From contig NZ_JASTWJ010000001.1 in NCBI RefSeq assembly GCF_030499515.1, positions 4,816,001 to 4,880,000 of the forward strand: 64,000 nucleotides of DNA, written 5' to 3'. A program made the translations under genes and the position numbers. Source of the DNA: Streptomyces sp. DT2A-34 (GTDB lineage: Bacteria > Actinomycetota > Actinomycetes > Streptomycetales > Streptomycetaceae). Below are positions 39,897 through 52,400 of the stretch, in pieces. Under the pieces are notes generated by a model. The model searched no databases and had not been told where the DNA came from. It was given only the letters and a program-made list of their open reading frames with translations. Positions within the stretch are counted from its first letter, which is position 1. Each line of letters opens with the position of its first letter.

Positions 39897-40807
39897 GAGA
39901 TCCTGAACTCCTCTTCCGCGATGGACAGGTAGAAGTCCTCCAGCGAAGGCATGTCCTCGGACAGCCAGTGCAATGGCACGCCGCCGTCCGCCGCGAGGGT
40001 GGCGATCCGGATCCGGTCCAGTCCGGTGACGTGTGCGCTCGGCCCGCCCGCCGGGCTCAGCCGCCCGCCCTGCTCCTCCACCAGACGCGTGAGCTTCGGC
40101 AGGTCCGGCGTCTGCACGGTCACCACGCTCCGGCTGCCCGCCCGGGACAGCAGCTCCGCGATCGGCGAGTCGGCCACGACACGGCCGCGCGACAGCACGA
40201 CCACTCGGTCCGCGAGCTGCTCCATCTCGCCCAGCAGGTGGCTGGACACCATGACGGCCCTGCCCTGCGCGGCCTGGTCCCGCAGGAAGTCCCGTAGCCA
40301 GCGGATCGCGTGCGGGTCGAGTCCGTTCGCGGGCTCGTCGAGGATGAGCACCGGCGGATCGCCGAGCAACGCCTGCGCGATGCCCACGCGCTGGGCCATT
40401 CCCAGGGACAGCTGGGACAGTCGCAGCCGGCCCGCCTGAGTGAGGCCCACCAGCTCCAGCATGTCGTCGACGCGCCGGTCCGACGCGCCGCACCCGGCGG
40501 CCACCATCCGCAGATGGGACCGCACCCGGTGCTTGGGGTGGCCGACGATGCCGCCGAGGACTGCGCCCACGACCGCGCCCGGGGAGCCCCAGGCGTGCAG
40601 CGGGCGGCCGAGGAAGTGACTGGTGCCCTCGCCGTGGGCGAGGCCCAGCATCAGGCGGATGGTGGTGGTCTTGCCCGCGCCGTTGGCGCCGACGAAGCCG
40701 GTGACCTCGCCGGAGCGCAGTGTCAGCGACACGTCGTCGAGGACCGTTCTGCTGCCGAACGAGCGTCTCAGGTCCCGTGCTTCGGCCAGTACGTCGCCTT
40801 TTGGCAC
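39893..40807 (-). CDS. ABC transporter ATP-binding protein
   Basis: 304 residues. Walker A GANGAGKTTT, signature LSLGMAQRVGIAQALLG, Walker B PVLILDEPANGLDP, and the H-loop in VMVSSHLLGE, as in drug- or peptide-efflux ATPases of the CcmA type. The GTG start at 40807 follows GGAGGAACAC. Third gene of the operon. Confidence 0.93.
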   Translation of the reverse strand: MPKGDVLAEARDLRRSFGSRTVLDDVSLTLRSGEVTGFVGANGAGKTTTIRLMLGLAHGEGTSHFLGRPLHAWGSPGAVVGAVLGGIVGHPKHRVRSHLRMVAAGCGASDRRVDDMLELVGLTQAGRLRLSQLSLGMAQRVGIAQALLGDPPVLILDEPANGLDPHAIRWLRDFLRDQAAQGRAVMVSSHLLGEMEQLADRVVVLSRGRVVADSPIAELLSRAGSRSVVTVQTPDLPKLTRLVEEQGGRLSPAGGPSAHVTGLDRIRIATLAADGGVPLHWLSEDMPSLEDFYLSIAEEEFRIS

Positions 40808-40860
40808 AGCGTGTTCCTCCGTGCGTGGACCCAACCTACGAACCTGTCCCTGACGGAGCG

Positions 40861-41133
40861 TCAGGACCAGGGAAATCCTTTGTTGATGATGAAGAGAACG
40901 GTGAACAGCACCATTGCTCCCATCGGAACGATCACGAACGAGTCGGGCCGTTCGCGCCGGGCCGCGCCCCAGACGAGGGCGACAAGCGGCCCAATGAGCC
41001 CGGCGGCCATCAGAGCCCAGCCCGCGTCTTTGTTTCCGACCACGTGGAATGCGATGAACGCTGCCGTGATGAAGCAGAAGGGCGAGGCCCACAGGTTCTT
41101 GAGGGCGGAGGACATTTCGGTGGTGGAGGCCAT
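40861..41133 (-). CDS. Small three-helix membrane protein
   Basis: 90 residues: FCFITAAFIAFHVVGNKDAG, WALMAAGLIGPLVALVWGAA and FVIVPMGAMVLFTVLFIINK span the membrane. It lies between the putative peptide gene and the ABC genes, where bacteriocin immunity proteins are often found. No sequence family recognised. Confidence 0.75.
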   Translation of the reverse strand: MASTTEMSSALKNLWASPFCFITAAFIAFHVVGNKDAGWALMAAGLIGPLVALVWGAARRERPDSFVIVPMGAMVLFTVLFIINKGFPWS

Positions 41134-41211
41134 GAGTTCTTCCTCGCTATTGGGCGGGGCACCCGGGGGTCGGCCGTTTCTCCGACCGGCCCCCGGACGC
41201 CACCTCGACTT

Positions 41212-41682
41212 CTAGAACAGGCTGTTGATGTAGCTCCACAGCGCGTACTGCACTTCACCGCCGGCAGCGACCCAGGCGATACGGACCGGGTGGTACCAGG
41301 GCAGGCCGTTCATGTACCCGCGGAACTTGCCCCAGCCCGCCTTGGCGGCCTTGACCGCGTCGTCGTAGAGCTTGCCGCCGTGCCGCTTCATCAGGTTGTA
41401 CAGGGCCTTGACGGCGCTGCTGGCGGCACCACGGGTCTGGGCCTTGGTCGCCTTGCCGTCGGCCACCGCGCGCACCGACTGCACGTCCTGCGTGCTCAGT
41501 TCGGCCTTGACGGTCGGGTTGGCGAGAAACGTGCGGGCCTGAGCCGCGGACAGGCTCACCTCAGCGGTGGACGCCGTACGGGCGTGGGTGGCCTCCGCGG
41601 CCTGCGCCAGAGCGGCACCGGAGCCGAGCGCCACCGCGGCCATGGCGGAAACCGCCGCCATACGCAATGTATTGCGGGTCAT
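41212..41682 (-). CDS. Secreted cationic peptide precursor, bacteriocin-like
   Basis: 156 residues. Sec signal (RMAAVSAMAAVALGSGAALA, cleaved near AQA). An acidic/neutral pro-like segment (about 35-90) is followed by a Lys/Trp/Tyr-rich, Gly-containing C-terminus (LMKRHGGKLYDDAVKAAKAG, LPWYHPVRIAWVAAGGEVQY). Size, charge and linkage to an ABC pair plus a small membrane protein resemble Sec-exported bacteriocins; activity is inferred. AAGGGAG lies within a hairpin just upstream. Confidence 0.75.
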   Translation of the reverse strand: MTRNTLRMAAVSAMAAVALGSGAALAQAAEATHARTASTAEVSLSAAQARTFLANPTVKAELSTQDVQSVRAVADGKATKAQTRGAASSAVKALYNLMKRHGGKLYDDAVKAAKAGWGKFRGYMNGLPWYHPVRIAWVAAGGEVQYALWSYINSLF

Positions 41683-41691
41683 GTAGAATCT

Positions 41692-41713
41692 CCCTTGCGT
41701 TCAATCGCAAGGG
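41692..41713 (-). promoter_or_regulatory. Hairpin enclosing the ribosome-binding site of the peptide gene
   Basis: In mRNA sense, CCCTTGCG and CGCAAGGG pair (8 bp, 6-nt loop). The Shine-Dalgarno AAGGGAG is part of the 3' arm, so translation could be blocked when the stem forms. A second palindrome (CGCAAT-AC-ATTGCG) lies just inside the coding sequence at 41663-41676. Confidence 0.7.
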
Positions 41714-41981
41714 GAGGAAGCCCGTGCGGGCGACCTGAACAGGCGTGGAAACCGAAAAGGGTCCCCCCGGACTTCTTCCCCCGATTACTTCTCTGCGGAC
41801 ACGCCGAAAAAAGCCCCATAGGGGGCCGGTAAGGCCAAACCCACGGGTGCTGGATTACGGGGTCCTTGCGTCTCAACGCCGCTGGTCAGGACGGGTGTTC
41901 GACGCAGAGAGAAAATAACACAGCCTGAGGCCACTTGGCCAGAAACCGTGTTTGCGCGTGCGGGACATGTAAAAGCAATGC

Positions 41982-42011
41982 GCCAATTCAATTTAATTGG
42001 CAACTTTTTTT
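41982..42011 (+). terminator. AT-rich hairpin plus T7 tract without an upstream gene
   Basis: GCCAATT-CAATTT-AATTGGC followed by AAC and seven T residues: a textbook intrinsic terminator on the plus strand, unusual in Streptomyces. No plus-strand gene precedes it, so it may end an unannotated small RNA or be a regulator-binding palindrome. Confidence 0.5.
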
Positions 42012-42056
42012 CGACAGGCGATCGGCCAGACGCTCGGCAGACGATGGGAACGGCCG

Positions 42057-43031
42057 TCAGACGCCTTCCACCGTCGCCAGGTACAGCTGCACGAAGCGGG
42101 CCACGTCCACGTCCAACGCCACGTCCACCAGGGCCTGTTCGCGCATGCCGGTGTGGATCTCGGACTCGCCGGGGCGGGGGCGGCGGTCGACGAGGGTCTG
42201 GCCTCGGGTGGGGCCGGGGGCGAGGGAGACCTCGACGGGGAGGAGGCGGGTGGTGATGCCCGCCGGGTCCACGACCGTACAGACCGCGCCCGCGTCGCCG
42301 ATGCCGCCGGCCTCGGAGTCGGCGTCGACGTCCGGCGTGGCCGGGCGGTGGGCCAGCAGGTCGCCGGCGAGCCGGGCGCCGGGTTCCGTGCTCGCCCGCA
42401 GGCGCCGTACGTCCGCCCCGGGGACCACGACCCGCTGGAAGACGTCCAGCCCGTACATGGTGATCGGCACCCCGGCGGTGAGCAGGATCGCGGCCGCCTC
42501 CGGGTCGTGCCACACGTTGAACTCCGCGACCGGCGTGGCGTTCCCGCAGGCCACCGCGCCGCCCATGAAGACGATCCGCTCGATGTTGTCGGTCACCTCC
42601 GGGTGCGTGCGCAGCAGCAGGGCGATGTTGGTGAGGGGCGCGGTGGGGACGAGGGTGACCGGGCGCGGGGACGCCAGGATCTCGCGGCGCAGCAGCGTCA
42701 CCGCGTCCACGTCGGCCGGGGCGCGGGTCGGGGCGGGCAGGCCGAGGTCGCCCATGCCGTCGTCGCCGTGCACATGCCGCGCCGAGCGGGCGAGCTCGAT
42801 CAGCGGGACGCCGGCGCCCCGCGCGACGGGGATGTCGGGGGCGCCGGCCTGCTCCAGGACGGTGAGGGTGTTGCGTACGACGCCGTCCACGTCCGTGTTG
42901 CCCGCCACACAGGTGACCGCGCGCACGTCGAGCCCCGGATGGCGTACGGCGAACAGCAGCGCCAGGGCGTCGTCGACACCGGTGTCACAGTCGATGATCA
43001 CCGGGATGGGCTGCCCTTCGGCGTTCGTCAC
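42057..43031 (-). CDS. Nucleoside hydrolase (IunH/DUF4058-free, IUNH family)
   Basis: 324 residues. Cleaves the N-glycosidic bond of ribonucleosides in purine/pyrimidine salvage. The calcium-binding signature IIDCDTGVDDALALLFAV is at about residues 12-29. The segments VPTAPLTNIALLL, VFMGGAVACGN and AEFNVWHDPEAAA follow the IUNH family order. It stands as a single gene; the exact base specificity cannot be read. Confidence 0.92.
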   Translation of the reverse strand: MTNAEGQPIPVIIDCDTGVDDALALLFAVRHPGLDVRAVTCVAGNTDVDGVVRNTLTVLEQAGAPDIPVARGAGVPLIELARSARHVHGDDGMGDLGLPAPTRAPADVDAVTLLRREILASPRPVTLVPTAPLTNIALLLRTHPEVTDNIERIVFMGGAVACGNATPVAEFNVWHDPEAAAILLTAGVPITMYGLDVFQRVVVPGADVRRLRASTEPGARLAGDLLAHRPATPDVDADSEAGGIGDAGAVCTVVDPAGITTRLLPVEVSLAPGPTRGQTLVDRRPRPGESEIHTGMREQALVDVALDVDVARFVQLYLATVEGV

Positions 43032-43153
43032 GGCGGGGTTCCTCTCACGGGCGGCGGCTGTGCGGTGGCGGGGTCCGAGAAAGCGACCTTACGGTGTGAT
43101 GCAGGTGGAGTGCGTCGCCGTATGGCGTCGTCGTGCGGCTCGTGCGTGCGGCG

Positions 43154-44401
43154 TCATGCGGCGTCCACCACCGCGTCCCACAGCTCCGGGCCGCGCGCCG
43201 CCACCCGAGCGGCGATCCGGCCGAGCAGCTCCGCGGCGGGTACGGCGCCCGGCCTGCGCCCGTCCCGCAGTCGTACGGCCACGAGGTCACCGTCCGCCGC
43301 GGCCTCCCGCTCTCCGATGACCGCCTGGTACGGCACGAGGCGTGCCGCGCGGATGCGGGCACCCAGGGTGCCGTGCTCGGGACCGGCGAGTTCCGCGCGC
43401 AGGCCCTGGTCCAGGGCCCGGCGCAGCAGCCGCTGGGCCGGGGCGAGCTGGGCCTCCGACACGGGCAGGATCAGCAGTTGCACCGGCGCGAGCCAGGCCG
43501 GGAAAGCGCCGCCGTGCTGTTCGATGAGGTGGGCGACCGCACGCTCCACACTGCCGATGATGCCGCGGTGGACCATGACCGGGCGGTGCTTGGCCCCGTC
43601 GGGGCCGATGTAGTGCAGGTCGAAGCGTTCGGGCTGGTGGAAGTCGATCTGCACGGTGGAGAGGGTCGCCTCGCGGCCCGCCGGGTCGGTGATCTGGACG
43701 TCGATCTTGGGGCCGTAGAAGGCCGCCTCGCCCTCGGCCGCCTCGTACGGGATGCCGGAGCCGTCGAGGACCTCGCGCAGCAGCGCGGTGGCTCGCCGCC
43801 ACAGCTCGGGATCGGCGACGTATTTGCCGCCGCCTTCGCCCTCGCCGGGGAGGGAGAGGCGGTGGCGGGCGGCCCGGATCCCCAGATCGGCGTAAGCGCG
43901 GGCGATGAGTCGCAGGGCGGCGCGGGCCTCCTCCACCGCCTGCTCCAGGGTGCAGAAGATGTGCGCGTCGTTGAGCTGGATCGACCGTACGCGGGTGAGG
44001 CCGCCCAGGACGCCGGACAGCTCAGAGCGGTACATGCCGCCCAACTCGGCCATGCGGAGGGGAAGTTCGCGGTAGCTGTGGGAGCGGGAGCGGTAGATCA
44101 GGGCGTGGTGGGGGCAGAGGCTGGGGCGCAGGACGACCTGTTCGGCACCGAGCTCCATCGGCGGGAACATGTCGTCGCTGTAGTGGTCCCAGTGCCCGGA
44201 GATCTCGTACAGCTCGCGCTTGCCGAGGACCGGCGAGTAGACGTGCCGATACCCGGCCTCGCGTTCCGCCTCGCGGATGTACTCCTCCAGCACGTGCCGG
44301 ACGATCGCCCCGTCGGGCAGCCAGTAGGGCAGGCCCGCGCCCATCAGCGGGTCGGTGTCGAAGAGGTCGAGTTCGCGGCCGAGGCGGCGGTGGTCGTGCA
44401 T
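43154..44401 (-). CDS. thrS: Threonyl-tRNA synthetase, short form without TGS and editing domains
   Basis: 415 residues against ~640 for the housekeeping enzyme. Class II catalytic core: motif 2 MYRSELSGVLGGLTRVRSI, zinc ligands in PSLCPHH and the His of VMVHRGIIGS, and motif 3 GSVERAVAHLIE. The C-terminal anticodon-binding domain begins near PVQLLILPVSEAQ. The TGS and N2 editing domains are missing at the N-terminus. Start 44401 has a perfect GGAGGAG. It is preceded by a Thr-rich leader peptide and terminator, and is probably a second, regulated or resistance-type synthetase. Confidence 0.92.
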   Translation of the reverse strand: MHDHRRLGRELDLFDTDPLMGAGLPYWLPDGAIVRHVLEEYIREAEREAGYRHVYSPVLGKRELYEISGHWDHYSDDMFPPMELGAEQVVLRPSLCPHHALIYRSRSHSYRELPLRMAELGGMYRSELSGVLGGLTRVRSIQLNDAHIFCTLEQAVEEARAALRLIARAYADLGIRAARHRLSLPGEGEGGGKYVADPELWRRATALLREVLDGSGIPYEAAEGEAAFYGPKIDVQITDPAGREATLSTVQIDFHQPERFDLHYIGPDGAKHRPVMVHRGIIGSVERAVAHLIEQHGGAFPAWLAPVQLLILPVSEAQLAPAQRLLRRALDQGLRAELAGPEHGTLGARIRAARLVPYQAVIGEREAAADGDLVAVRLRDGRRPGAVPAAELLGRIAARVAARGPELWDAVVDAA

Positions 44402-44439
44402 GGCTGCTCCTCCAGGGGATACGGACGAGCACCCACGAC

Positions 44440-44465
44440 AAAACCCCGGGGCACTCGCCCCGGGG
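44440..44465 (-). terminator. Attenuator terminator upstream of the synthetase
   Basis: On the transcribed strand a 9-bp stem (CCCCGGGGC and GCCCCGGGG, loop GAGT) is followed by TTTTG. It lies between the leader peptide and the synthetase ribosome-binding site, the place expected of an attenuator. Confidence 0.85.
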
Positions 44466-44484
44466 CTTCGGATTCGCTCAGGTG

Positions 44485-44541
44485 TCAGCGCGCCGGGACG
44501 GGGTCCGGCGTCGTCGTGAGAGACGGGATGGCGCGCTGCAT
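44485..44541 (-). CDS. Threonine-rich leader peptide of the synthetase attenuator
   Basis: 18 codons, ATG at 44541 to TGA at 44485, reading MQRAIPSLTTTPDPVPAR with three consecutive ACG Thr codons. It ends 20 nt before the terminator stem. A TACGGT element about 7 nt upstream of the ATG suggests a leaderless start. Expected mechanism: stalling at Thr codons when charged tRNA-Thr is scarce prevents the terminator and turns on the synthetase. Confidence 0.8.
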   Translation of the reverse strand: MQRAIPSLTTTPDPVPAR

Positions 44542-44657
44542 GCCGGGACCGTAACAGGGGGTCGGCGGGGAGGTCGCGGTGATTTCCCGATTCACATCAC
44601 CACTGTGAAGCCGTGCGGTTACGCTCAGCTACAGACCGGACTCTGGGGGTGTACGCC

Positions 44658-45506
44658 TTGGTTCACATTCGTCAACTCGATCCCACGGCCTCGCCATTGG
44701 ACTACTACGGCTGGGAGCTGAGGAGAAGGAGGGAGGAAGCGGGGCTGACCCTGAAGCAGTTGGGCTCGATCGTCTTCTGCACGGGGTCGTTGATCGGCCA
44801 GATCGAGACGACGCTGAAGGTGCCGACGCGACCGTTCTCCGAGCGGGTGGACGTCGCGCTGGGAACGGACGGGTGTTTCTCGCGGCTGGTGGGGCTGGTG
44901 CTGCGCAGCCAGCTGCCGACCTGGTTCCAGCCGTACGCCGACATGGAGGCGAAGGCGACGTACATCTCCACGTACCAGTGCCAGCTGGTGTACGGGCTGC
45001 TGCAGACGAAGGCGTACGCGGCGGCGCTGCTGTGCGTGGATCAACCGGACCAGGTTGAGGACATGGTCGCCGCCCGCATGGAACGGCAGCGCGTCCTGGA
45101 GCGTGAACAACCGCCCGCGCTGTGGGTGGTCCTGGACGAGTCGGTGCTGTACCGGATGGTCGGCGACCGGAACGTCATGCGCGAGCAACTCGCCCACCTG
45201 CTGAGCTTCCGGAACAACCCGTCGGTGCACATCCAGGTGCTGCCGTACTCCGCGGGTGCGCACACCGGGATGGTGGGCTCATTCAACCTCCTGCGCTTCG
45301 ATGAGCACCCGGACCTCTTCTACAGCGAGAGTTACGACCAGGGCCACATGACTGCCAACCCGCAGGTAATCAGGGAACGTTCGGTCGGTTACGCTCGCTT
45401 GCAGGCCGCCGCCCTCTCACTCGATGAGTCGGCCGACCTGATCGCCCGCGTGATGGAGGAACGCTATGGACACCAGCAAGCAGCGGAAGGCCGCGACGTG
45501 GCGTAA
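44658..45506 (+). CDS. XRE-family HTH regulator with DUF5753 domain
   Basis: About 282 residues. Helix-turn-helix at about 12-70 (LRRRREEAGLTLKQLGSIVF, CTGSLIGQIETTLKVP), then the DUF5753 ligand/dimer domain (about 90-275, with YGLLQTKAYAAALL and NNPSVHIQVLPYSAGAHTG). Start uncertain: TTG at 44658 with GGGGGTG upstream, or GTG at 44649. Such regulators pair with adjacent DUF397 proteins in Streptomyces and often affect development or antibiotic genes. Confidence 0.88.
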   Translation: MVHIRQLDPTASPLDYYGWELRRRREEAGLTLKQLGSIVFCTGSLIGQIETTLKVPTRPFSERVDVALGTDGCFSRLVGLVLRSQLPTWFQPYADMEAKATYISTYQCQLVYGLLQTKAYAAALLCVDQPDQVEDMVAARMERQRVLEREQPPALWVVLDESVLYRMVGDRNVMREQLAHLLSFRNNPSVHIQVLPYSAGAHTGMVGSFNLLRFDEHPDLFYSESYDQGHMTANPQVIRERSVGYARLQAAALSLDESADLIARVMEERYGHQQAAEGRDVA

Positions 45507-45765
45507 GTCCAGCTACAGCGGCACCAACGGCGGCGACTGCGTCGAGTGCGCCCCACTCGGCACCGCCGCCTGGCGCAAGTCCTCCTACAGCGGCACCAGC
45601 GGCGGCGAATGCGTCGAGGTCGCCGACCTCACCCCCTGCATCGCCGTCCGCGACTCCAAGAACCCCGAGGTCGGCACCCTCACGCTCTCGCCGGAGGCAT
45701 ACGGCGCCTTCGTAGGCTATGTCGGCTCGGGCAACGGTGCGAGGCCCGGTATCTCGGCGCGGTAG
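45466..45765 (+). CDS. DUF397 protein with duplicated domain
   Basis: 99 residues. Two DUF397 copies: WRKSSYSGTNGGDCVE near the start, then WRKSSYSGTSGGECVEVAD followed by the usual VRDSKNPEVGTLTLSPEAY end. The first copy is truncated. Overlaps the HTH gene by 41 nt, so the two are translationally coupled; DUF397 proteins are thought to antagonise their HTH partner. Confidence 0.88.
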   Translation: MDTSKQRKAATWRKSSYSGTNGGDCVECAPLGTAAWRKSSYSGTSGGECVEVADLTPCIAVRDSKNPEVGTLTLSPEAYGAFVGYVGSGNGARPGISAR

Positions 45766-45769
45766 CGGT

Positions 45770-46030
45770 TCACGGCTCGAGGGCCAGATAGGCGCGTACC
45801 TGGGTCACGGCGTGCGCCACGTCGTACTGGTCGGAGTCGATGTACGGGACGACTCTGATGGCGGCCTCCCACTCGTCGGCGGTGACGGGGGCCTGCGACG
45901 CGTCGGCGATCCACCGGGCGGCGCGGGGCGCATCGGTGCCGCCCAGCGTGGCGGCGTACCGGGTCTGCGCGGAGAGGACGGACCGGGCGTCGTCCTCGAC
46001 CGCCACGTTCCGCCACATCTCCGTCGTCAC
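45770..46030 (-). CDS. Small helical hypothetical protein
   Basis: 86 residues from the GTG at 46030 (GGGGAGGATG upstream). Helical throughout, with Trp-containing segments (TTEMWRNVAVEDDARSVLSA, DAPRAARWIADASQA). No known family; Streptomyces-like codon use supports it. Confidence 0.65.
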   Translation of the reverse strand: MTTEMWRNVAVEDDARSVLSAQTRYAATLGGTDAPRAARWIADASQAPVTADEWEAAIRVVPYIDSDQYDVAHAVTQVRAYLALEP

Positions 46031-46213
46031 CCGCGCATCCTCCCCGCCCGCCCGCCTCCGCGTGGCCCGAATCGGCGATCCGGCCCGCCCGCGGGGGGAG
46101 CGGACCACGTCACCCGGACGGCTCGGCGCGCTGGTGGTCGTACTCGTGGGGTGATGCCTTAAGAGCACGCACCGATCTTGAGTGCACGCCTGACCCAGCA
46201 CAGGAGGCCCGCG

Positions 46214-46999
46214 ATGCCCCGTCCCCCGGCCCGCGCCGTCATCGCCTCGACGCTCTCGGCAGCCAGCCTGCTGACCACCGCCTCCGCCTGCTCCCTCGCC
46301 CAGCCGGAGAGGACGGTCTCGGGTGTCCCCGCCGCGGTCTCGCCCGCGGACACGGCCACCGGGCCCCCGACCCCGGCGGCCGCCCCGACCCTCACCGAGG
46401 CGCAGGCGCGGGCCGCCCTCATCAGCGAGGCCGATCTCGGGGAACCCTGGGTCCCCACCCAGGGCGTCGCCACCTGGCGGGACTCCATGCTGAAGGCGAG
46501 CGCCGAGTCGGCCGAGTGCCGGCGGCTGCTCGACGCCCTGTACGCGGAGGAGCTGTTCGGGCCGGACGCCCGTACGCGCGCCTCGGTCGGGCTGGACGAC
46601 GAGTACGACGAGGCCCAGCTGCGCTACCAGGTCGTGGCCCACCGGCCGGACGAGGTGGACCGGACGCTGGAGTGGCTCGGCAGCCTGCCGGACACGTGCG
46701 GGCAGTTCATGGCGAGGACCGCGCGCGGCGGGATGATGACCGTGGAGGTCGGCGAAGCGCAGATGCCGGAGGTCGGCGACGCCCGGCGGGGCCTGCACAT
46801 CGTCCTCAGCGGCGTCTCCGAGGACGAGGAGGCGCCCACGCTCACCCTCCACGTCGCCGTCGTCCGCGTCGGCGACGACGCGATCACCGTCACCAACGGC
46901 GGCCTCGGCGAGGTGCCGGGCGACGCCACCCTGGCCGCCGTCGAACTGGGCGCCCAGCGCCTGGCGGAGGTCAGGAAACGGGGTCGGGTGGAGGTCTGA
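46214..46999 (+). CDS. Lipoprotein of unknown function
   Basis: 261 residues. Lipobox TASAC (about residues 22-26); start 46214 with a perfect AGGAGG. The mature part, after a Thr/Pro linker, is a mixed alpha/beta domain (LISEADLGEPWVPTQGVATW, RYQVVAHRPDEVDRTLEWLG) similar in layout to PknH-sensor-like lipoproteins of actinobacteria. Ligand unknown. Confidence 0.78.
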   Translation: MPRPPARAVIASTLSAASLLTTASACSLAQPERTVSGVPAAVSPADTATGPPTPAAAPTLTEAQARAALISEADLGEPWVPTQGVATWRDSMLKASAESAECRRLLDALYAEELFGPDARTRASVGLDDEYDEAQLRYQVVAHRPDEVDRTLEWLGSLPDTCGQFMARTARGGMMTVEVGEAQMPEVGDARRGLHIVLSGVSEDEEAPTLTLHVAVVRVGDDAITVTNGGLGEVPGDATLAAVELGAQRLAEVRKRGRVEV

Positions 47000-47024
47000 C
47001 CGCTCGGTCAGGCCATGCGCTCGG

Positions 47025-47312
47025 TCAGACCATGCGCTCGGCGAGACGCTCGACCGCCTCCTTGGCCTCCTTCAGGCCCTCCCCGGTGATCTCCCGATAG
47101 ACCTTGATCGCCTCGATCTTCTTGCCGTTCCGCAGGAGCACGAGGACCTCGTCCATGCGGGGCTCGTCCTCCTGCAGCCCCAAGTGGTCGAGAACCAGGT
47201 CGAGTTTGCGCTCGACCCGGGCAACTCGCTGATCCGTCCGGGAAATCCTGCTCTGGATGGTGATGATGCCCGCGAACGCGGCCAGCACGAAGAAGAGACC
47301 CACTATGTCCAT
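47025..47312 (-). CDS. Membrane protein with ribosomal L7/L12 C-terminal-like domain
   Basis: 95 residues. N-terminal membrane helix (VGLFFVLAAFAGIITI), coiled region, then the L7/L12-like module (KKIEAIKVYREITGEGLKEA KEAVERLA). In actinobacteria such fusions occur outside the ribosome with unknown function. Confidence 0.78.
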   Translation of the reverse strand: MDIVGLFFVLAAFAGIITIQSRISRTDQRVARVERKLDLVLDHLGLQEDEPRMDEVLVLLRNGKKIEAIKVYREITGEGLKEAKEAVERLAERMV

Positions 47313-47361
47313 GATCGACGATCATAGGTGAGCCCGCAGGGCCCGCAGGGCTCACTCCGGC

Positions 47362-48102
47362 CTACTCCCGGTCGAACCGCAACCGGTGTTCCACCACGTC
47401 CCGTGCCGCGTCGAGTGCCGTGCTTCCGTCGGCGAAGGCGTGGGCCCGTAGCCGTGCCAGTGCCTCGTCCGTGCCGACGCCCAGCTGGGCCATGATCATG
47501 CCGGTGGCTTGGTAGACCTGGTCGTGGTCGGCGGCGAGGCCGCTCAGCCACTGTTCGTCCTGGTCGCCCGCGTCCTCCGCGCGCGGCAGTGCCATCAGCG
47601 CCACCGTCATCATCCCGGCCACCAGCCGTGCCGTCCGCAGGTCCCGGTCGGTGAGGTCGCCGGGGGTGTCCCGGTAGAGGTCGAGCGTGCCCACGCACAC
47701 CGTGTCGTTGCCGAGCGGCATCGAGTACACCGCCCGCACCCCGGCGGCCGTGGCCTGCTGGGCGAAGACCGGCCAGCGCAGGACGTCCCGCCCGGCCGTC
47801 AGGTCGCAGGCCAGCACCGGCGCACCGCTCTGTGCGGCGGACTGGCAGGGGCCGTCGCCCAAGGTGGCCTGGATCTCGGTCACAAACGCGGCCTGCGCAC
47901 TGCTCGCGCCCAGCTGGACGGGCATGCCGTCACTGTGCAGCGACACGCTCGCGCCGGTCACGGGCAGCAGCTCCACGGCGACGTCGCACAGCCGCGCCGG
48001 GATCTCGCCGGGGCCCGCACCGCGTACGCCTTCGGCGATCGCGTCCGTGGCACCGGTCCGCTCTCGTCCCCGCTCATCAGGATGACCGTCTTCGGGCCGC
48101 AC
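47362..48102 (-). CDS. GAF-ANTAR domain transcription antitermination regulator
   Basis: 246 residues from GTG at 48102 (GAGGAGGCT upstream). GAF domain at about 30-165 (VTGASVSLHSDGMPVQLGAS, GPCQSAAQSGAPVLACDL), then an ANTAR domain (about 175-240: LAADHDQVYQATGMIMAQLG, ALARLRAHAFADGSTALDAA). ANTAR binds paired RNA hexaloop hairpins to prevent termination; GAF senses a small ligand. Targets unknown. Confidence 0.9.
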   Translation of the reverse strand: MRPEDGHPDERGRERTGATDAIAEGVRGAGPGEIPARLCDVAVELLPVTGASVSLHSDGMPVQLGASSAQAAFVTEIQATLGDGPCQSAAQSGAPVLACDLTAGRDVLRWPVFAQQATAAGVRAVYSMPLGNDTVCVGTLDLYRDTPGDLTDRDLRTARLVAGMMTVALMALPRAEDAGDQDEQWLSGLAADHDQVYQATGMIMAQLGVGTDEALARLRAHAFADGSTALDAARDVVEHRLRFDRE

Positions 48103-48237
48103 GGCAGCCTCCTCATCGTGAGAGCGGCCTGCTTGTCCAGGGCCCTCGGGTGGTCCTTCCACCGCTCGCCCGGACGCCGCCCGACTACCCGTGGCACGCC
48201 CCGCGAAACCCCGCCGGCCGCCGCGCGGCGACCGCCT

Positions 48238-48805
48238 CTACCGTTTCTCGTACGGGTTCGCGGGCTGCGCGATCCGCCGCACGACGCCGCGTCCAGGACC
48301 GGCGGCCATGCCGCGTGCGTGCCGAGCGCGCCCTTGGGGTGCCAGGTGCCGGTGACGGTGACCCAGGCGTCGACGGGCGGGGCGTCCGCGTCCCGATCTC
48401 GACCTTGCCGGTGGTGGCGTCGGCGGCGCAGCAGGCGACGAGGAGGCGGGTGACGTACCAGGCGCCGTCGTCGTCGCGGGTGACGAAGCCGGTCAGCCGG
48501 ACCGTGCGGCCCGCCAGCGACCGTCCGCTGTCGTGGATCGCCCGGGAACCGAACTCCGCCACCGTCAGCTCCACCGGGTTCCCGGCCGCCAGCGCCGGGA
48601 AGGCCCCGACCCTTGCGCCGCTCGCTGCGCCGCCTCGCGCTCGGCGCTGTAGGAGCCGAGGGCGGGGGAAGAGGAGGAGAGCGAGCATCGGCCCGAGGAC
48701 CGAGACGACCGTGGCGATGGCGATGAGGGCGGCGCCGCCGAGCAGGGCGTACACGAGCGCGCGCACGCCGAGCCGCAGCCCGTCGGCCACGCTCCGCTGG
48801 TTCTG
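48238..48805 (-). pseudogene. TIGR03943-family membrane protein C-terminal part, multiple frameshifts
   Basis: Across three frames the sequence reads as the second half of a TIGR03943-type protein: a membrane helix (ALIAIATVVSVLGPMLALLL), LGSYSAEREAAQRAAQ, AGNPVELTVAEFGSRAIHD, GRTVRLTGFVTRDDDGAWYV, VDAWVTVTGTWHPKGALGTH and VRRIAQPANPYEKR. At least four single-base losses at C/G runs are needed. The N-terminal half is absent; the family is paired with zinc-linked permeases elsewhere. Confidence 0.65.
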
Positions 48806-48860
48806 GCACGCGCCCGTCCTCGCCCGGTCGGTAGGTCCCTGCCCTGTCGGTAGGCCCCTG

Positions 48861-49320
48861 CCGCCCTGCGAGTGGTGGATGAGCGGCTGGTACCAGTACT
48901 GGCCCTTGTAGCCGGGCCGGACGGTGTTGGTGAGGGTCTCGGTGACGGTGCGCCTGTCGCCCACGGTCCAGGTCTCGTTGCTCTCCACGCCGGCCTTCAT
49001 GCCCGACTGGATCTCGTCGGAGAGAAACCGGCGCTGACCTCCACGGTCTGCTTCGTGCCGTAGGAGTAGGAGGTGTTGGTCTCGTAGGCGGCGGCACGCG
49101 CGTACGTGGCGTTGTCGGTGCCCTGGCAGTCGTTGAACACGTTAGGTCGGGCGTGCCGGCGTTGCAGTCGCCGATCACGTCGGGCTTGTCGGAGCCCCAG
49201 CCGGGGTGGCCGCGTTGGCCGTGCCCGTGGAGAAGGGGATCAGGGCGAGCGCGAGGGCGGGAGCGAGCACGGCGAGGCGTCGGCCGCCGCTCTTGATGGA
49301 CTTCCTGTGGAGGGATCTCC
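48861..49320 (-). pseudogene. Damaged secreted beta-rich protein gene, relative of the 32.5-kb gene
   Basis: A signal peptide (RRLAVLAPALALALIPFSTG) and mature parts in different frames: GWGSDKPDVIGDCNAGTPDL, VFNDCQGTDNATYARAAAYE, SYSYGTKQTVEVSAGFS, then WTVGDRRTVTETLTNTVRPG with YKGQYWYQPLIHHSQG. Two or more frameshifts are needed; no clean start codon remains. The order (Cys motif, strands, V..GYKG turn) parallels the secreted protein at 32.5 kb. The 3' end runs directly into the TIGR03943 remnant. Confidence 0.6.
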
Positions 49321-49433
49321 CGGTTCGGTCGTGTCGGGCGCTGCCCTTCGCGGCCCTGATCGGGGCAGCCCGCCGCGGCGCGAGCGGAGGAGGTTGCCCG
49401 CGCCACGGCTGGAACGAGGCTGACAGGCCGGGG

Positions 49434-49468
49434 AATTGATGGGCAGCCCGTCTCATCAGGGCAATCAA
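49434..49468 (-). promoter_or_regulatory. 35-nt element, copy A
   Basis: TTGATTGCCCTG...CATCAATT, downstream of the second nSTAND1 gene and upstream of the damaged secreted protein gene. It matches copy B at 53606-53640 at most positions, and the similarity runs on for ~25 nt. Confidence 0.65.
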
Positions 49469-49488
49469 CCAATGGACAGCTCAGGGCG

Positions 49489-52400
49489 TCAGTCCCCGCA
49501 CACCTTCCGGTATGCCGCGTCCGGCACATACGTCCGCCACTGCGCCCGCGTCAGCTGCTGCCCGCCCACCCGGGCACACACCCGCTCGGCCACCCGCTCG
49601 GGGCCGACGACGTACCGCTGGAGCGGCACATGGGTCCCCGCCGCGTACACCGTGCCGCTGTCCTCGCTGAACGCCACCGAGACGATCTCCTCGCCCGGCG
49701 TCGGCAGGGGGTCGCCGAGCGGCTGCTGCGTGGCGACGTCCCACAGCTGGAGCGTGCCCGAGCTGCCGCCCACGGCGAGCGTGCGGCCGTCGGGGCTGAG
49801 CGCCAGCGCGCTGACGCCCTCCGGGGTGTCGCCGAGCCGGGCCGGGAAGACGTTGCGCAGGACCCCGGCCTTGTGCCGCACGTCCCCGTCCCACAGCGCG
49901 ACCCGTCCGGTCCCGTCGCCCACCGCCAGCCGTGAGCCGTCCGCGCTGAAGGTGATGGCGCCGATCTGGTCGCCCTGGACGAGGTCCTTTCCGGTCACCG
50001 ACCCGTTCGGGAGGCGGGCGACGCGGTTGTCGCCGACCAGCAGTCCATCGTCGGGGCGGACGGCCAGGTTGCCGCTGTCCAGGCCGGTCACCACGGAACG
50101 GCGGCGGTGGCTCTCCGTGTCCCACACCTCGTCGCGCAATTCTCCGACAGCGGGCGTGCGCACGGCGTACAGCGTGCGGCCGCCGGAGCCCAGGGCGAGG
50201 TCGATGACCGCCCCATCCGAGTCGGCGGTGGCCAGGTCCAGGGTGTCCCGGACCCTGTTGTGGCGCAGGTCCCAGATCGTGATCCGCTGTGGGGCCGCCT
50301 CTCGGCCCGGCGCCGAGACGCCGTAGACGAGCAACCCGCCGTCCGGGCTGAACGCCGTCAGGGCCTGGGTGTCGCCGAGTATGACCTGGTCTGTGCCCTC
50401 CTGAGCGGCGGCCTGGTCTGTGCCTGCCTGAGCGGCGGCCCGGTCTGTACCCGCCAGGGAGGCGGGCACCGGCGGCGACGGCAGCGTCCGTACGACATGG
50501 CCGTCGCGGGTGTCGCGCAGCTGGAAGCGGTAGCCGTTGTCCTTGACTTCGGCGGTGGCGAGGGCGCGGCCGTCCGGGGCGAGGCGGACGCCGGACAGGG
50601 CACTGTCGTCGTCGTGCCAGGCCGGCGTCACCGCCGTCGCCACGTCGAGCGAGTGGACCGTACCGGCCTCCAGGTAGCGCAGGACGGGCTGTTCGGGGTC
50701 CCAGGCGAGGCCGCCGTACGCGTACTGGTTGTTGAGGGAATGCCGGTAGACCGGGGCGTCGGGGTACGACAGCCGCCACACCTTGATCTCCGTACCGTCG
50801 GCCGCCGCCAGGAACTTGCCGTCCCTGCTGAAGGAGGTGTACTCGACGCCCGGGGCCGTGAGATCGGCCAGCAGCCGCCCGGAGCCGGTGTCCCAGACGC
50901 GGATGCCGGACGCGGAGACGGCGGCCATCCGCTGCCCGGCGCCCATGATCAGCGACGAGTCGTTGTCGGCGCAGACGTTCTGGTCCTGCGTCCACTCGCC
51001 GGGCAGCGGCCGGTGGCGGGCGGTGTCCCACACCTGTGGTGGCTTTGCGCCCTGGCCGCCCGTGGGGCAGAAGGCGACCGTGCGTGCGTCGGGGGCCATG
51101 TCCGTGCGGTCGGCCGCCGGGCTCTCGAACATCGACTTGCCGTCGGTGACGGAGCGCACGCGAGCCCGTTCGCCTTCGGGGCCGGTCACCAGATAGGCGT
51201 GGTCCCCGATGACGACGTCGGAGAGCAGCGGCCACGGTCCACCGCCGGTCCAGCGTCCTGTGGCCGTGTCCCACAGCCGGATGCCGTCCGCTCCGCTCAC
51301 CGCCATGACCTTGGCGTCCGGAGAGACCGCCACCACCTCGTGGTCCTCGACCGGCAGCCGGCCCGAGCCGGTGCGGCGGTGCGTGGCCACGTCGTAGGTC
51401 CGCCAGGTGCGGTCCTCGATGTTCAGCAGCGTGCGGCCGGAGGCGGTGAGGTAGCGGAAAGGGGTCTCGCCGGGGGCGGGGTCGGAGAAGATGTCCTGTT
51501 CGGGCTGGGCGAGGGCGCCGAGCAGGGCCCGGCGGGACTCGGGGAGCGGGGAGACGCGCCAGGCGGCGACCCCCAGCAGCATCGCGGCGCGCGGGTCGGT
51601 GGTGCGCAGCGAGTCGGCGACGGCGGCGATGCGGCGGGCGGCGGTGTCGGTGCGCTGCCGCTCGTTGTCGCGGTGCTGGCTCCACGCGGCCAGGCTCACC
51701 ACGAGCGCCACCGCCAGGACGGCGGACAGGGCGGTGACCAGTGCCCGGGATCTTCGGGCGGTCCGCGCGGCGGCCCGCTGCTCGGCCTCCCGGGCCTCCA
51801 GCGCGGCGACGAGGAACCCCCGCTCCGACACGGTGAGCGTGCCGTCGTCGTCCCCGAACAGCTCCTCGGCCCGCGCCAGCCTGCTGCCCCGGTACAGCCC
51901 GCCCGGGTCGCGATCGTGCTCCAGCCAGGCGCGGGCGGCCTCGGTCAGGCGCCGGTGGTGGCGCAGCCGTTCGCGGTCCTCGTCCAGCCAGCCGGACAGG
52001 CGCGGCCAGCAGGTGATCAGGGCCTCGTGGGCGAGCTGGACGCCGTCCTCGTCGGCGGTGAGCAGGCGGGCGCGGGCCAGCCGCTCGACCACCTCCGGCA
52101 CGTCGGGACCGGTCCACTCCGCCAGGTCGGCACGGGTCAGCGGGCGCCGGGTGTCGGGGGTGCCCCGGCCCGGCTCGACCAGCCGCAGCAGCAGCTGGCG
52201 GGCCGTGCGCGCCTGGTCCTCGGTCAGCTGCTCGTACACCTCCTCCGCCGTCGCCGCGATCGCGCCGCGCACCCCGCCGGCCGCCTGGTACGCGGCCAGG
52301 GTGAGCACCCGGCCCTTGCGCCGCCGCCAGGTCTCCAGGAGGACGTGCGAGAGCATGGGCAGTCCGCCCGGCTGGTCGACGACCTCGCCGACGATCCGCG

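Follow-up and report, generated by a model that had tools for sequence, protein, structure and literature searches.

Does a short open reading frame (ORF) with three consecutive threonine codons, situated just upstream of a threonyl-tRNA synthetase (ThrRS) gene of Streptomyces sp. DT2A-34, control that gene by stalling the ribosome when charged tRNA-Thr is scarce? We addressed this question in a window of 64,000 nucleotides (positions 4,816,001 to 4,880,000 of contig NZ_JASTWJ010000001.1), whose own numbering is used throughout. The original prediction for this locus had described an 18-codon ORF containing ACG ACG ACG, a 9-bp GC hairpin followed by TTTT, and a GGAGGAG motif ahead of the synthetase start, and had interpreted this arrangement as ribosome-mediated attenuation. 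The ORF was indeed present on the minus strand (44541-44485, with its ATG at 44541), as were, on the same strand, GGAGGAG and the synthetase start (ATG at 44401). The GC hairpin and the TTTT behind it were found as well, but the stem was 14 bp long by folding (44470-44439) and not 9 bp. The features of the region are collected in Table 1, where two segment numbers joined by a colon denote the helix that those segments form.

Table 1. Features of the leader region and the short ThrRS gene in the window.
Feature	Position	Strand	Remarks and basis
Putative -10 box TACGGT	44548..44553	-	6 nt 5' of the leader ATG; start site inferred
Leader peptide ORF, MQRAIPSLTTTPDPVPAR*, 18 codons + TGA	44485..44541	-	Sequence; frame conservation
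Segment 0, CAGCGCGC, codons 2-4; partner GCGCGCUG, the ORF end (44486-44493)	44531..44538	-	
Regulatory Thr codons ACG ACG ACG	44509..44517	-	ACG three times in 284/290 upstream regions
Hairpin A (1:2), CGCCGG...CCGGCG; variable codon 14 in the loop	44491..44510	-	
Segment 2, CGUCCCGG; candidate antiterminator strand for CCGGGGCG (44456-44463)	44493..44500	-	Masked nascent fold
Hairpin B (3:4), 14 bp, terminator-like, then UUUU	44439..44470	-	Folding; covariation
Segment 3, GGGGCGAGUG, apex of hairpin B; alternative partner segment 5	44452..44461	-	Covariation
Segment 5, UGCUCGUCCG; complements the hairpin B apex, belongs to the Shine-Dalgarno (SD) hairpin	44422..44431	-	
Hairpin C (5:6), contains the SD and start codon of the ThrRS gene	44399..44437	-	Folding; covariation counts
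SD GGAGGAG of the ThrRS gene, within hairpin C	44407..44413	-	Sequence, folding
Short second ThrRS gene, 415 aa	43154..44401	-	Pfam, TIGR00418, PDB match

The gene behind the leader encodes an unusually composed enzyme. Pfam detected only a class II core and an anticodon-binding domain in the short ThrRS, which nevertheless passed the curated ThrRS family TIGR00418 (441.1 bits, with a cut-off of 383.65). Its best match in the PDB was 1nyq, a structure from S. aureus, and this match began at residue 241 of 645 and continued onward from there, indicating that the enzyme lacks the TGS and editing domains of the N-terminus; neither domain was found in the short ThrRS by Pfam. A full-length ThrRS of 658 aa (L002) is encoded elsewhere in the genome and is 44% identical to the short ThrRS over the part that they share. 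No Thr-Thr-Thr leader was found upstream of this full-length thrS in the DT2A-34 genome, and the leader therefore belongs to the second ThrRS. A near full-length short ThrRS gene was present in 129 of the 295 sampled Streptomyces genomes, a figure that we counted from the match table, and fragments were present in three more. In the Streptomyces genomes G094, G014, G174, G081 and G224, additional ThrRS-like genes were noticed, either as second copies or as fragments.

Two neighbouring genes flank the region. A nucleoside hydrolase gene (42057-43031) lies on the same strand downstream of the short ThrRS, so that co-transcription is possible, and a nucleoside hydrolase was found downstream of the short ThrRS in 61 of the 70 named loci with full flanks; this neighbourhood gives no functional clue for the short ThrRS. 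On the other side, a gene for a HTH_31-DUF5753 regulator (44613-45506) is divergently oriented, and the intergenic region is common to it and to the leader promoter.

The leader occurred in genomes of seven actinobacterial families. In the regions upstream of homologues, TTTP with a stop close behind it occurred at 109 of 111 loci in one set, for which the pattern search set no start-codon requirement (at L100, no in-frame start was found), and at 92 of 100 loci in another, while a Thr-Thr-Thr ORF was found at 83 of 85 loci in a third; the three sets overlap in genomes, and the counts are of loci and not of independent genomes. Twelve loci did not show the leader pattern. Two of these belong to the full-length paralogue (L002, L212), two lie at contig ends (L259, L286), four carry two Thr codons (L088, L131, L132, L134) and three have shifted or extended frames (L137, L170, L175). 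The only true loss among the twelve was L162, a Streptomyces locus in which the leader ORF is gone and hairpin B is retained before the short ThrRS.

A covariance model of the leader scored 126.8 bits at this locus in a search of the 10.3-Mb genome, whereas the next-best match in the same genome, which overlaps a tRNA-Val gene, scored 29.5 bits, showing that the match at the locus is not due to chance. In a class-wide search of 394 genomes, which used stricter filters and in which the positions of matches and genes were compared by eye, 62 genomes carried the short ThrRS gene, and in 59 of them a match of at least 55 bits preceded it. The three genomes without a model match were G584 and G708, where the gene lies at contig ends, and G626, where the leader was seen by its pattern (L296); the sole other match of at least 55 bits among the 394 genomes was cut at a contig end (G313). 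As the model was built in part from the genomes that were searched, these matches speak for its specificity and are not an independent discovery of the leader.

Leaders of this kind were also observed before the full-length gene. In two genera of family f19, the full-length thrS was preceded at 6 of the 30 loci read (L347, L348, L349, L351, L364 and L375) by a Thr-Thr-Thr leader that has two hairpins, one with CGCCGGG and one with CCCCGGGAGCGAUCCC. In three of these genomes (G663, G763 and G783), the class search found no short ThrRS (E 1e-112).

If the Thr codons are to act through a ribosome, the leader ORF has to be translated. We found that the AGCGYGY motif behind the start codon stands at ten different distances from the ACG codons, and that all of these keep a single reading frame in 258 of 258 regions, counting those in which the start motif could be recognised (it was missing from 32 of the 290). 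The spacer between hairpins A and B behind the ORF, in contrast, spreads over three frames (157/84/47). This difference, in which the frame is kept from the start to the Thr codons and not behind the ORF, indicates that the leader is probably translated. ACG-ACG-ACG itself was kept in 284 of 290 upstream regions, even though in four genes of DT2A-34 threonine was encoded by ACC 41 times and by ACG 32 times. The original prediction had named a loss of the ORF or of its Thr codons in close relatives as an outcome that would speak against it, and both were retained with few exceptions across the seven families.

An SD motif was absent from 281 of the 286 leaders and an SD-like motif was present in the other five; a leader start could not be chosen for L070, L100, L160 and L296. 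Upstream of the leader starts, a TANNNT-like profile was seen at positions -13 to -7, and a C stood at -1 in 256 of 285 leaders. The combination of a missing SD, a TANNNT-like box and the C at -1 suggests that the leader mRNA is probably leaderless, with its transcript starting at the leader ATG.

The hairpins were counted in 290 of 296 upstream regions, after removal of L002, L212, L259, L286, L162 and L033, the last of which has a changed arm of hairpin A. Covariation was counted in an alignment of 92 of 281 leaders picked by a similarity cut, and these counts may be inflated by relatedness. Hairpin B contained 29 doubly changed cells, compared with 5.0 after shuffling, and it is for this terminator-like hairpin that the covarying stem pairs that the original prediction proposed to look for upstream of thrS homologues were clear. 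Comparison supported the reading of the region as ribosome-mediated attenuation, through the frame kept in all 258 regions, the conserved ACG triplet and the covariation of hairpin B. We consider it very probable, from these sequence comparisons, that ribosome stalling at the Thr codons controls the short ThrRS gene as an attenuator sensing charged tRNA-Thr.

The part of the ORF that follows the Thr codons is also conserved, and could be so either as peptide or as RNA. The stem of hairpin A starts within the last of the three ACG codons. The codons CCG, GTC, CCG and GCG that come after the Thr run show little or no variation, third positions included, and the one codon that varies freely, number six when the first ACG is taken as number one, forms the hairpin A loop. 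An arrest peptide, in which the conserved TTTPESVPAR would stall the ribosome, perhaps together with a small molecule, is consistent with the very conserved peptide end; however, the conservation is at the level of the RNA, as the third positions indicate, and a shift of frame alters the peptide past the Thr codons at L137, L170, L275, L295, L296 and L297 while hairpin A is intact. That hairpin A stands despite the shifted peptides argues against an arrest peptide, which we regard as highly improbable and have dropped. Judging from these comparisons, the 3' half of the leader ORF is conserved as an RNA hairpin and not as a peptide.

The kind of gene downstream would also suit a T-box or another riboswitch, which are placed before aminoacyl-tRNA synthetase genes; in Firmicutes, thrS and thrZ use T-boxes. 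No such family was among the five Rfam matches in positions 40000-50000 at E values up to 10, and what is present instead is a conserved, translated ORF with regulatory codons, which makes this explanation scarcely credible. Likewise, the Rfam family of the enterobacterial thr operon leader gave no match in positions 40000-50000 at E values up to 10.

Besides its pairing in hairpin A, segment 2 can pair with segment 0, and this 0:2 pairing was present in 92.1% of cells, as against 15-56% with slid partners; there were only 2 doubly changed cells, and L295 provides a compensatory case. In the full fold of DT2A-34 without a ribosome, the longer 0:2 helix was preferred and hairpin A was reduced to a 4-bp GGAC:GUCC remnant, so that segments 0 and 1 together hold segment 2. 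When the stretch under a ribosome at Thr codon 9 or 10, the first two of the three, was masked, the nascent RNA paired CGUCCCGG with CCGGGGCG, forming the 2:3 helix, and a ribosome placed at the stop codon covered segment 2. With the ribosome stalled at Thr 11, the third of them, segment 0 recaptured segment 2, a result that counts against the simplest model. The 2:3 helix was paired in 96.0% of cells and in 31-71% when slid, but 119 of 500 shuffles gave covariation as high; the helix is nearly invariant, and covariation hence neither supports nor refutes it. One possible reason for this near-invariance is that every strand has two or three partners to match.

The U-run behind hairpin B was good in DT2A-34 but weak in most relatives, with TTT at most 9 nt past the GC core of the hairpin in 50 of 278 cases, suggesting that termination may not be the sole output. 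The apex of hairpin B (segment 3) is complementary to segment 5, and in DT2A-34 this 3:5 helix has 9 bp, with the outermost G opposite G. Across 259 unique regions, the match between apex and segment 5 had a mean score of 21.8 for the region's own partner, 19.6 for partners swapped between species and 15.7 for shuffled ones, and it lay above the 95% point of the shuffles in 178 of the 259. In the 92-leader alignment, 91.0% of cells were paired as 3:5, compared with 47-60% when slid, and 36 doubly changed cells were counted, as against 8.6 after shuffling, with 0 of 500 shuffles as high. One 3:5 pair changes from A-U to G-C in six loci of three families. The helix is not uniformly kept, as several species break at least one pair and it is broken at several positions in, for example, L203, L205 and L209.

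Three stem Gs of hairpin B pair with segment 5, as G-C or G-U, in 269 of 275 ungapped cells. A pseudoknot limited to the loop, in which the apex loop would pair with segment 5 while hairpin B stays closed, is therefore less likely. In two of the leaders that precede a full-length thrS (L347 and L349), the apex GGGAGCG faces a downstream CGCUCCC, which is the 3:5 pairing in other letters; by eye, five 3:5 pairs remain in L348, and the pairing is not clearly present in L351, L364 and L375.

These observations bear on a simpler version of control by stalling, a textbook transcription attenuator made of 1:2, 2:3 and 3:4, in which segment 5 and hairpin C would be ordinary structure of the ribosome binding site with no role in a switch. 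The geometry of the stall, segment 2 and hairpin B fits such an attenuator, as do the U-run present in DT2A-34 and some relatives, the precedents predicted in Streptomyces for trpS and leuS (Seliverstov et al. 2005, PMC1262725) and the finding, given below, that 3:5 opens the SD only partly in DT2A-34. A plain terminator, however, has no need of a 3:5 helix that covaries, that engages three stem Gs of hairpin B and that recurs in other letters in L347 and L349, and we regard this version as rather unlikely.

The remaining element is hairpin C, whose 5' arm includes segment 5. In 252 of 255 unique regions, at least half of the SD (3 to 6 of its 6 nt) was paired, a count made with no shuffled control. 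Hairpin C contained 42 doubly changed cells, compared with 25.4 after shuffling (0 of 500 shuffles as high), but the number of its pairs bearing a double change was not unusual (54 of 500 as high). Short contiguous matches between segment 5 and the SD gained little from belonging to the same leader (13.8 own vs 13.0 swapped; 12.0 shuffled). A clearer signal came from the counts of changed cells and from the whole-arm duplex energies of hairpin C, which were -16.8 for own arms, -14.7 for swapped and -13.1 for shuffled ones, and only 47 of 255 own duplexes lay beyond the 5% point of the shuffles.

To relate 3:5 to the SD, the helix was forced in 89 of the 92 leaders, namely those with at least 7 standard 3:5 pairs. 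Forcing raised the mean probability that the SD is unpaired from 0.26 to 0.55, and the SD became more open in 81 of the 89 leaders and less open in 4. For DT2A-34 itself, the rise was only from 0.17 to 0.34, and in its best folds with the ON helices forced, 7 of 7 and 4 of 7 SD nucleotides were still held in other, weaker pairs. Release of the SD by 3:5 is, on these models, plausible for the family and weakly indicated for the DT2A-34 sequence. In the full transcript with a stalled ribosome, hairpins B and C together amounted to -64.5 kcal/mol, vs -37.4 and -43.9 kcal/mol for the ON forms; as B + C are far more stable than the ON forms in the finished RNA, the switch could only be kinetic.

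The same data can be read as a mainly translational attenuator, in which hairpin B would be a relay hairpin instead of a terminator and stalling would let segment 3 take segment 5, freeing the SD. The SD is at least half paired in nearly all of the unique regions of the uncontrolled count above, C and 3:5 both covary, forcing 3:5 opens the SD in most leaders, U-runs are poor, and the T-boxes of actinobacterial ileS genes work via an SD hairpin (PMC1262725). Against this version, hairpin B, once formed, is too stable for segment 2 to open, so that a co-transcriptional step would be needed anyway. Moreover, a GC hairpin can act as a terminator in Streptomyces even when its U-run is poor. We consider a mainly translational attenuator improbable.

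The version that we prefer combines both outputs, antitermination followed by opening of the SD; taken alone, this full two-stage version is in our estimate possible but falls somewhat short of an even chance, and its second step, the opening of the SD, is one that we infer. With ample Thr-tRNA, the ribosome would reach the stop codon and cover segment 2, hairpin B would form and transcription would mostly end, and in transcripts that leak through, hairpin C would hide the SD. If the leader is not translated at all, segment 2 would be held by segments 0 and 1, which also gives the OFF state. A ribosome stalled at the ACG codons would instead cover the 5' arm of hairpin A and leave segment 2 available to segment 3 while segment 4 has yet to be synthesised, so that RNA polymerase would pass B; segment 3 would then be captured by segment 5, hairpin C would open and the synthetase would be translated.

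The sensor and the missing editing domain together suggest that the short ThrRS may be a backup for times of poor tRNA-Thr charging. A wider proposal joins the two-stage attenuator, in which segment 3 is contested by segments 2, 4 and 5 and segment 5 by the SD, to a role in tolerance of ThrRS inhibitors, as an arrangement common in Streptomyces; we put this forward only tentatively. Under this proposal, one stalled ribosome would both let RNA polymerase pass and open the start site, and an editing-free spare ThrRS would remain silent until tRNA-Thr charging fails, whatever the cause, including attack of an inhibitor on the main ThrRS. Borrelidin and obafluorin are natural ThrRS inhibitors, and a link of the short ThrRS to such compounds is our hypothesis.

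Several known systems share parts of this arrangement. In the thr and pheST attenuators of E. coli, a ribosome that stalls at codons for the amino acid under control keeps the terminator from forming, and the short-ThrRS leader would resemble them in this. The thr operon, however, controls biosynthesis, whereas the short-ThrRS leader would control charging, and the E. coli thr and pheST leaders have an SD and are not known to have a downstream segment connecting the apex of the terminator with the SD. In B. subtilis, thrZ is a second ThrRS gene that is made when Thr-tRNA is short; it is governed by T-boxes and encodes a full-length enzyme. The short ThrRS would likewise be a second gene for Thr-tRNA shortage, but with leader-peptide attenuation and an enzyme lacking the editing domain. 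ErmC-type translational attenuators, in which stalling needs an antibiotic and the nascent peptide, are similar in that stalling in a leader re-sorts hairpins and frees an SD, although codon starvation is the likely signal for the Thr leader.

For Streptomyces, Seliverstov et al. 2005 (PMC1262725) predicted attenuators of the classical type ahead of trpS and leuS; they also predicted SD-sequestering T-boxes before ileS in actinobacteria, named the pheST attenuator, and stated that no conserved RNA structures were found upstream of threonine operons. The Thr leader would share with the trpS and leuS attenuators a leader peptide with regulatory codons, an antiterminator and a terminator before a synthetase gene, but it differs in amino acid and gene and has, in addition, an SD hairpin and a 3:5 helix that covaries. 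With the ileS T-box as described there, it shares the control of a synthetase gene via an SD-sequestering hairpin, but the sensor would be the translating ribosome and not the binding of a tRNA. A limited full-text literature search found no paper joining leader peptide, attenuation, Streptomyces and threonyl-tRNA synthetase.

The leader predicts when many Streptomyces would make their second ThrRS, and it would be a natural sensor, compact in build, of how well tRNA-Thr is charged. Should the 3:5 layer work in the way we suppose, a single leader would couple transcription attenuation with translation control. The locus also raises the question of why an editing-less ThrRS should be kept in reserve.

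One further leader was encountered in the model searches. At L338, a leader ORF, MQRKFWRFYGYRPLGRTVARLALR*, is rich in Phe, Trp and Tyr and is accompanied by a GC hairpin, and a close relative of it occurs at L339. The gene that follows reads, by eye, like a DAHP synthase, and the L338/L339 leader is likely an aromatic amino acid attenuator.
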